From assembly GCA_029781035.1 (NCBI GenBank), contig JAKOXK010000070.1, positions 62,001 to 126,000 on the forward strand: a stretch of DNA of 64,000 bases, written 5' to 3'. Below, one piece after another: positions 50,119-52,314 of the stretch (within the stretch, counting starts at the first letter, position 1; each line of letters starts with the position of its first letter). The notes below the pieces were generated by a model that was not told where the DNA came from, searched no databases, and saw only the letters and a list, made by a program, of their open reading frames with translations. The stretch is from Armatimonadota bacterium (GTDB taxonomy: Bacteria; Armatimonadota; Fimbriimonadia; Fimbriimonadales; Fimbriimonadaceae). The position numbers and the translations under genes are program-made.

Positions 50119-51120
50119 TTACTTCTTGCTCTTGGCGGTGTTGATCTCACCGTAGACTTGGTCTGGGCTGGCGTAGCCGACGTATTCGTGGAAGACGGCG
50201 CCGTCCCCATGCATGAACTTGACCGTGGGCATGGCCGTGATGCCGTACTTAGAAGCGATCTCTTTTTGAGCGTCCACGTCCACCTTGCAGAGGATGAAGT
50301 CCTTCGTCAGTTCTTTGAACTTGGCGGTGTGGAAAGCCTCGGCGTCCATGCGCTTGCAGGGGCCGCACCAGGTCGCCCAGAAATCCACCATGAGGACTTT
50401 GCCCGTGGCCTTGGACAAGGAGAGGGCTTTGTCAAAGTCGGTCATCCACACGCCAGAAGCGACGGCGTTCGCGTCGATCTCCTTGGCACCGGCCGGGGCC
50501 TTGAACGCGAACAGGTCCGGGCTGGCCGAAGTCGAGCATTGGCTGACCAAGAGGACGCTTGTCATCGGATCCTGTCCGGGGGCCGTGATCGTGATCTCCC
50601 CCTGCTTCAACATGTTGTTGCTCACGTCCGTGTAGAGCTTCATGTTCATGGCGCCCTTGGGGTCGAATTGGACGTCGATCGTGTTCAAGGTCATTCCAGC
50701 CCGGTTTTTCGTACCGGTGTCCTTACTGGCCGCGTATGTGTCGACGACGCCTGGGTTGAAGAACGCCCGCCAAACCGCCAGGTCAGAGTCACCGAAAAGC
50801 TCCATCAGGGCTTCGTTTGTCTGAGGCTTCTTGACATACGAATTCTCTGTCTTGTCGTAGACAGTCACGGTGGCCCCGTCGGCGACGGACACGGTCGTCG
50901 GAGTCTCGATCCGAGCCATGTTCGGCTTGCTGAAAGCCACGTTGTACTCAACAGCGGTGCCACCGAGGGGTTGGACGACGTACTTGGCGCTGAACGCCTG
51001 TGCGCTGCCCATGGTCGCGGCGAACGCCTTGAGCTTGGTCGAAGAACCACCCAAGGTGGCGGCCAGACAAATGGCCGCGGTCATTGCGAGCGAACCCGCC
51101 AACATCGTTCTCTTATTCAT
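50119..51120 (-). CDS. LolA-like/thioredoxin fusion protein (Cys form)
   Basis: A 333-residue exported protein. Signal peptide (LAMTAAICLAATLGG), then a LolA/DUF2092-like domain (about residues 25-210; FSAKYVVQPLGG, TLNTIDVQFDPKG) and a C-terminal thioredoxin domain with WCGPC in MVDFWATWCGPCKRMDAEAF and the cis-Pro in GITAMPTVKF. It is a paralogue of the gene at 51316-52314, which has TGA in place of the first active-site Cys. Likely a periplasmic disulfide reductase joined to a lipoprotein-carrier-like domain. ATG 51120 with AGGTGGG is preferred over GTG 51129. Confidence 0.88.
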   Translation of the reverse strand: MNKRTMLAGSLAMTAAICLAATLGGSSTKLKAFAATMGSAQAFSAKYVVQPLGGTAVEYNVAFSKPNMARIETPTTVSVADGATVTVYDKTENSYVKKPQTNEALMELFGDSDLAVWRAFFNPGVVDTYAASKDTGTKNRAGMTLNTIDVQFDPKGAMNMKLYTDVSNNMLKQGEITITAPGQDPMTSVLLVSQCSTSASPDLFAFKAPAGAKEIDANAVASGVWMTDFDKALSLSKATGKVLMVDFWATWCGPCKRMDAEAFHTAKFKELTKDFILCKVDVDAQKEIASKYGITAMPTVKFMHGDGAVFHEYVGYASPDQVYGEINTAKSKK

Positions 51121-51272
51121 TCTTCCCACCTAGGATCCGGAGATTCCCGCACTATTTTAGCCACAATATCCTAAAAGCCAGTCGTTCTGAACGAAAAGGA
51201 CGACAGGGGCCCGCTTTGCCAGGGATCTGCACCGTCGCGCCGATGTTTCGGACCGGGTGGTTCAAGATGGCC

Positions 51273-51305
51273 GAGGGCCGGTCGGATCCGTGCCGACCGG
51301 CCCTC
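51273..51305 (-). terminator. Hairpin terminator after selenoprotein candidate
   Basis: A 13-bp perfect stem with arms GAGGGCCGGTCGG and CCGACCGGCCCTC (51273-51285 and 51293-51305), starting 11 bp after the stop of the Sec candidate. The following tract has few T residues, so it is a strong hairpin but a weak terminator. Confidence 0.6.
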
Positions 51306-51315
51306 GCAGCGCCTT

Positions 51316-52314
51316 TCAGAGCTTGCTTGCGGCCTTCTTCACTTCGTCAACGAAGGCGTCCAACGGCATGTAACCGGGAATCCGGTCGATTTCGTCGCCC
51401 TTGGAATTGAAGAAGATGATCGTGGGGAAACCAGTGCAACCATACTTTGAGAAGAGGTCTGTCCTGACTTCACCGTTCACACGGCACAGGACGAAGTTCT
51501 TCGCGGCCTCTTTGAATTTCGGGGAGCTGAAAACTTCAGACTCCAATTTGTGACAGTAGGTTCACCAGTCCGCATAGAAGTCAACGATCAGTCCCTTGTT
51601 GAACTGCTTCGCCGCGTTCTGCGCGTCCTCGAAGTTCGTCAGCCACTTTCCTGCGACCAGGTCGGACTGAGACAGCTCCTTGGCGCCGGCAGGAGCCTTG
51701 AACGCAAAGAGGTCAGGGCTGGCGGAAAGGGAGGTGGCAGTAACGAGCAAGACCCTTGTCTGCGGATCCTGGCCCGGAGCCGACATCGTGATCTCACCCT
51801 GCCTCAACATGTTGTCGGTCGAATCCGTGTAGAGCCGAAGAGTCATCTCTCCCTTCGGATCCACCTTGACGTCGATCGTGTTGAGCGTCTTGCCAGCACG
51901 GCTCTTAGTCCCTGCGTCCTTAGAGTACGTGTACTGGCTCGTCACATCTTTGAAGAAGGGCTTCCACACCGCGGTCTCCACATCGGAGAAGAGACCCATC
52001 AGTTCGGCCTCGGTCTGAGGCTTCCTATAGTAGGTCTTCTCCAACTTGTCGTAGATCGTGATGTTCTTTCCGTCGGCGATGGTCAAGCTGGTCGGCGTCT
52101 CAACCGAAGCCTTGTCCGGCTTGGCCAGCGCGACGCTGTACTCCGCCGGTGACCCGCCGAGTGGCTGGACTGTGTATTTGATGCTGATCGCCTGCGCGCC
52201 GCCTAGAGCCGACGCGAACGCCTTCAGCTTGGGCGAGGCGTCGCTGGCCATGGCAGCAGTGCACAGCACCGCCGCCACGGCCAAGACCCCTGTTCCAAAT
52301 GTCTTGATGTTCAT
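51316..52314 (-). CDS. LolA-like/thioredoxin fusion, candidate selenoprotein (Sec at TGA 51562-51564)
   Basis: A 332-residue paralogue of the gene at 50119-51120. The frame runs from ATG 52314 through a signal peptide (GVLAVAAVLCTAAMA), a LolA/DUF2092-like domain (FASALGGAQAISIKYTV, TLNTIDVKVDPKG) and into a thioredoxin domain, then meets TGA where WCxxC should start: DFYADW, TGA, TYCHKLESEVF. The frame continues uninterrupted for 76 codons with the cis-Pro in FPTIIFF and ends at 51316. The TGA replaces the first, nucleophilic Cys; the second Cys is kept. A SECIS-like hairpin starts 17 nt after the TGA (51523-51544). If TGA is read as stop, the protein would lose its catalytic domain. Confidence 0.8.
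51523..51544 (-). promoter_or_regulatory. SECIS-like hairpin
   Basis: On the minus-strand mRNA, GGAG pairs with CUCC and, past a single bulged U, CUGAA pairs with UUCAG around a GUU loop. The loop lies about 27 nt after the UGA. Bacterial SECIS elements known from fdhF have the same order: a lower stem, one bulged U, a short upper stem and a small loop containing GU. The stem lies inside the coding sequence, as required for SelB-dependent recoding in bacteria. Confidence 0.65.

Follow-up and report, generated by a model that had tools for sequence, protein, structure and literature searches.

The in-frame TGA codon found at positions 51564-51562 (minus strand) of the window, i.e., the whole 64,000-nucleotide stretch of Armatimonadota DNA analysed here, is very likely a selenocysteine (Sec) codon, and the mRNA hairpin located at 51544-51523 its SECIS element. 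This reading is founded on the Sec-decoding genes of the same genome, on orthologues which also use Sec, and on hairpins with a G[G/U] loop that go with TGA and not with Cys codons at this site. We hold with good confidence that the TGA is decoded as Sec in a protein fusing a DUF2092 and a thioredoxin domain, with the hairpin acting as SECIS element, and we infer SelB binding, Sec incorporation, export and redox function. The Sec codon and the SECIS role had been proposed in an earlier note on this DNA; both have stood, while two of its supporting arguments, the weight given to a bulged U and the constraint imposed by the coding sequence, have not.

Regarding the gene itself (51316-52314, minus strand), it encodes 332 residues when TGA is translated as Sec (U), which then stands at position 251 (ADWUTYCHK) as the first residue of a U-T-Y-C (UxxC) active site. 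This codon (51562-51564) aligns with the CxxC Cys of the adjoining paralogue and of 58 other Cys orthologues, and is also TGA in nine other distinct orthologues. Past it, the frame stays open and conserved for 81 codons up to a normal stop, which is itself a TGA (51318-51316). Pfam matches include Thioredoxin_2 (8.4e-16), Thioredoxin_7 (2.4e-15) and a weak N-terminal DUF2092 (2e-5), and the thioredoxin-like domain covers residues 224-328 (51331-51645, minus strand; Pfam and PDB sequence matches), with what is by eye a probable signal peptide at the N-terminus. NCBIfam matches of the product were far below cut-off, and its single-sequence structure prediction (mean pLDDT 36.6) was not used. The tandem paralogue (50119-51129, minus strand), 51% identical over its full length, has Cys in a WCGPC active site and no internal stop; the search for related loci returned distant Cys thioredoxins only.

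With a thioredoxin-like domain and Sec-x-x-Cys, Sec being deduced from the codon, the protein belongs with the UxxC thioredoxin-like selenoproteins. UxxC thioredoxin and PF13098 selenoproteins are already known: in the accessible part of the table of PMC13188914, the entries "Thiol:disulfide interchange protein" (PF13098) and "Thioredoxin" (PF00085) have in common with the window protein a thioredoxin-like domain with Sec first in the active site. Unlike them, the window protein carries a fused, weakly matching DUF2092-like N-terminal domain, and a DUF2092-thioredoxin fusion was not found in that part of the table (PMC13188914). Searches of the accessible literature for DUF2092 selenoproteins, or for selenocysteine or selenoproteins in Armatimonadetes, Armatimonadota or Fimbriimonas, returned nothing relevant.

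The genome of the window (96.3% complete) contains the machinery to decode Sec, namely a tRNA-Sec with anticodon TCA (74.7 bits), a full-length selB (310.7 bits), selA (448.3 bits) and selD (335.8 bits), the latter having one in-frame TGA of its own (HCAGUASKLG) followed, 33 nt downstream, by a stem of 8 bp capped by a GUC loop. The gene combines what is asked of a selenoprotein gene, namely an in-frame UGA at a site where homologues have Cys or Sec, and a genome having tRNA-Sec, SelA, SelB and SelD. Among 85 genomes of the family, selB is above cut-off in 48 and selA in 50, and both are present in all nine genomes with a TGA orthologue (hypergeometric p 0.004 and 0.006, respectively), although as fragments for selB in G028 and selA in G013.

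All 85 family genomes searched have some match to the Sec gene, and nine of them, including the one of the window, possess a full-length orthologue with one internal TGA, always at the same codon; two more genomes of the order, from another family, have TGA orthologues as well (L064 and L083). In 69 distinct full-length orthologues, the site codon is TGA (10), TGC (45) or TGT (14) and never another one, TAA and TAG included. This set leaves out at least eight full-length Cys orthologues (G009, G012, G016, G026, G040, G045, G062 and G077), and rows were dropped for L074 (the same 135 nt as L075), for other duplicates and for L078, which matches the pattern described below and is not thioredoxin-like by eye. 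On the tree of the 69 sequences, seven changes of the Sec label are needed, at least three of them on well-supported branches. Cys-to-Sec changes are described, in the accessible part of PMC1794560, as common in thiol-based families, some Cys homologues keeping SECIS remnants, and this fits the Sec/Cys pattern seen among the orthologues. Two Cys orthologues, L021 and L088, have hairpins 23 nt (GAAGGC-GGAG-GCCUUC) and 33 nt (UCUUC-GGAACG-GAAGA) past the Cys codon, which are possible SECIS remnants. Across 291 genomes of the phylum, the pattern W-UGA-x-[FYW]-C was found at 30 places in 22 genomes, of which 29 places are thioredoxin-like by eye, and the reversed control pattern at none.

The hairpin described in the earlier note, starting 17 nt past the TGA, is confirmed in place by sequence and folding. 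On the minus-strand mRNA it reads GGAG (51544-51541), a single bulged U (51540), CUGAA (51539-51535), the apical loop GUU (51534-51532), UUCAG (51531-51527) and CUCC (51526-51523), so that the loop, whose G and U are the predicted SelB-facing bases, starts 27 nt past the TGA. Folded in isolation, it has an MFE of -9.0 kcal/mol (ViennaRNA), a stability reached by none of 200 dinucleotide shuffles (z -2.87). It is retained in the MFE structure of 48, 61 and 140 nt mRNA contexts, whose overall stability is not unusual (z -1.74, -0.96 and 0.03, respectively), and it is the best hairpin found within the 16-37 nt range.

The SECIS element of E. coli fdhF has a bulged U beneath a short upper stem and G-U in its loop. 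Both features of this general description recur in the window hairpin; unlike in fdhF-type elements, where the bulged U is functional, the one of the window is not kept in the other Sec orthologues (0/9, pattern test). Rfam gave no relevant match, the one hit being a chance match (E 3.8). The limits published for bacterial SECIS elements, as given in the accessible part of PMC13188914, comprise a loop of 3-9 nt, an upper stem of 4-16 bp, a G among the first two loop nucleotides, 16-37 nt from the UGA to the apical loop and an MFE of at most -7.5 kcal/mol, and the window hairpin lies within all of them (3 nt, 5 bp, GUU, 27 nt and -9.0). Compared with the consensus given there, it has G first in the loop, then U, and nothing outside the model; its sequence is unlike that of most orthologues, and such divergence is usual for bacterial SECIS elements (PMC13188914). 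Compensatory stem changes across orthologues, which count as support and are not among the limits of that model, did not exceed shuffles in a fixed register.

The exact hairpin is not conserved. Among the nine other Sec orthologues, its upper stem and loop (CUGAA-GUU-UUCAG) are shared by L081 only, and the bulged U by none, so that the bulged U, likened in the earlier note to the one that SelB recognises in E. coli fdhF, is not supported as a conserved key element. Several pairing registers are used among the ten Sec orthologues, and the covariation sought in two fixed registers did not exceed shuffles in either, with 53.3% of cells paired against a shuffled mean of 52.4 in the register of the window and none over shuffles in a second one (GGAC/GUCU). 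TGA orthologues without the hairpin, the observation that the note had named as adverse to its reading, thus exist as far as the exact hairpin is concerned; a hairpin of SECIS type, with at least 4 bp, is present in 10/10.

To assess chance formation, codons in the stretch past the site were recoded, i.e., exchanged for synonymous ones drawn from the same gene. The stability of the window hairpin is unremarkable by this measure, being matched by a fraction of 0.16-0.25 of recodings (p 0.245 and 0.159), and 55-64% of the recodings of the window gene yield a generic hairpin with 4 bp or more and a G[G/U] loop at 16-37 nt (25% for 5 bp). It follows that, contrary to what had been argued, a hairpin is not unlikely to be accidental on account of lying in coding sequence; the GAA-GTT-TTC-AGC strand stems largely from the encoded E-V-F-S. 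The full form, which includes the bulged U and a lower stem of 4 bp, occurs in 0.8% of 40,000 recodings, for a description fixed after the hairpin had been seen. Moreover, Sec and Cys genes do not differ in the energy of their best hairpin when the loop is unconstrained or contains any G (p 0.13-0.66), and do so when the loop must begin with.?G[GU] (p 0.003, 16-37 nt).

It is the comparison of orthologues that decides. A hairpin having 5 bp or more, a.?G[GU] loop and a distance of 16-37 nt past the codon is found in nine of the ten Sec orthologues and in four of the 59 Cys orthologues (Fisher 1.2e-7), and with at least 4 bp, for the same loop and range, in 10/10 and 19/59, respectively (Fisher 5.9e-5); the 5-bp threshold was brought in alongside that of 4 bp once stability had failed as a test. 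From recoding, such a hairpin is expected in 2.3 (at least 5 bp; P 7e-6) and 4.5 (at least 4 bp) of the ten Sec genes, and in 6.7 and 18.3, respectively, of the 59 Cys genes, so that the Cys genes behave as expected by chance and the Sec genes do not. When the 22-nt range was slid along the Sec genes, hairpins of at least 4 bp were present in 0-5 of the ten at each of 15 other places, versus all ten at the proper one, and the apical loops of the ten Sec orthologues, all beginning with.?G[G/U], start 20-27 nt past the TGA. On varying the settings, the contrast proved to require the G[GU] loop, and it weakened for 6 bp (p 0.019) or for any loop sequence (0.05-0.7, with loops of at most 7 nt). 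As the orthologues are related, only three independent Sec/Cys pairs are available on well-supported branches; they follow the prediction in nearly every case and are too few for significance (sign test p 0.25). At the place 22 nt before the SECIS range, 40 of the 59 Cys orthologues have a G[GU]-loop stem, far above the number at other places, for which the coding of the CGPC motif may be responsible. Beyond the orthologues, a set of 20 other predicted Sec genes, the selD of the same genome included, has 10 members with a G[GU]-loop hairpin of 5 bp or more, versus 2.3 expected (P 1.7e-7); the ten without it all look like one other family, with a longer and different hairpin.

These results have to be weighed against an explanation in which the TGA does encode Sec, but the hairpin arises as a side effect of the amino acid sequence and of codon usage, with another fold serving as SECIS or with SelB tolerating weak hairpins here. 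The frequency of generic hairpins among recodings, the lack of conservation of the exact hairpin, the membership of the upper 3' strand in conserved E-V-F-S codons, and the half of the other Sec genes which have the longer hairpin instead, all speak for it; nevertheless, the contrast between Sec and Cys genes with its positional control, together with the persistence of the hairpin as best of its range and in the MFE of longer contexts, renders this explanation rather improbable. The hairpin is probably the functional SECIS element of a selenoprotein with a UxxC thioredoxin domain.

Other readings deny that Sec is inserted at all. The Cys paralogue adjoining the gene and the Cys found in orthologues of the same genus would suit a TGA that is a plain stop codon, or an error of sequencing, in a degenerating copy of that paralogue whose readthrough is unused, a scenario that we regard as very improbable given the conserved open codons past the TGA, the use of TGA but never TAA or TAG in ten distinct orthologues and the presence of the decoding genes. 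A changed genetic code, in which TGA would stand for some other amino acid, Trp for instance, accounts for the open frame and nothing further, and it is barely credible in view of the Cys found in 59/59 non-TGA orthologues, the termination of the gene itself at TGA and the tRNA-Sec with its TCA anticodon.

The longer hairpin belongs to a second UxxC thioredoxin-like Sec family (L057, L058, L060, L062, L063, L071, L072, L076, L077 and L079), most members of which have, by eye, a long TPR-like C-terminal part. In an alignment of the 63 nt following each TGA, it comprises two helices, one of 8 bp (columns 17-24 with 52-59) and an inner one of 4 bp, with 86.7% of cells pairing versus 18-41% when slid, and a covariation score reached by 6 of 500 shuffles; its apical part, at 14 nt, does not fit the loop model of 3-9 nt. 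The phylum has three further kinds of thioredoxin-like genes with W-UGA-xxC (L061/L068/L085, L070/L084 and L080/L086), each having 6-8 bp hairpins and a GUUCC, AGUU or UGGA[C/U] loop 16-22 nt past the TGA.

The two halves of the window gene may have distinct histories. Its N-domain is 61% identical to that of its own Cys paralogue versus 38-39% to the five Sec genes listed, and its thioredoxin domain is 48% identical to L081, from the Sec genes of other genera, versus 38% to the tandem paralogue; in an AU test, the grouping of the thioredoxin domain with its genus was not rejected (p 0.42). From sequence comparison, gene conversion or a domain swap within 50119-52314 is possible. We put forward, as a tentative and rather doubtful proposal, an undescribed family of DUF2092-like/UxxC-thioredoxin selenoproteins whose SECIS element would keep its loop letters and distance while sliding between registers within conserved codons; in the window, the Sec copy may be a mosaic, with the N-terminal half from its own Cys tandem copy and the thioredoxin-plus-SECIS half from the Sec lineage.

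By the mechanism known from E. coli, SelB with GTP and Sec-tRNA-Sec would most likely bind the loop G and U of the hairpin as the UGA enters the ribosome, and the bound complex would insert Sec where release factor 2 would otherwise act. The resulting protein would be a thiol-disulfide oxidoreductase, either periplasmic or secreted, export being suggested by its N-terminus, with Sec as attacking residue and a Cys version of the same protein encoded beside it.

Finally, the finding adds a selenoprotein which ordinary gene calling would truncate at 250 amino acids. Moreover, the ten Sec orthologues and the 59 with Cys, including the Cys counterpart adjacent to the gene, offer a comparison of what a bacterial SECIS element must keep: here, evolution would preserve a short stem, of roughly 5 bp, whose G[G/U] loop lies about 20-27 nt past the UGA, and not a particular sequence, register or bulged U. 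If the Sec copy were indeed a mosaic, the use of Sec would move as a cassette.
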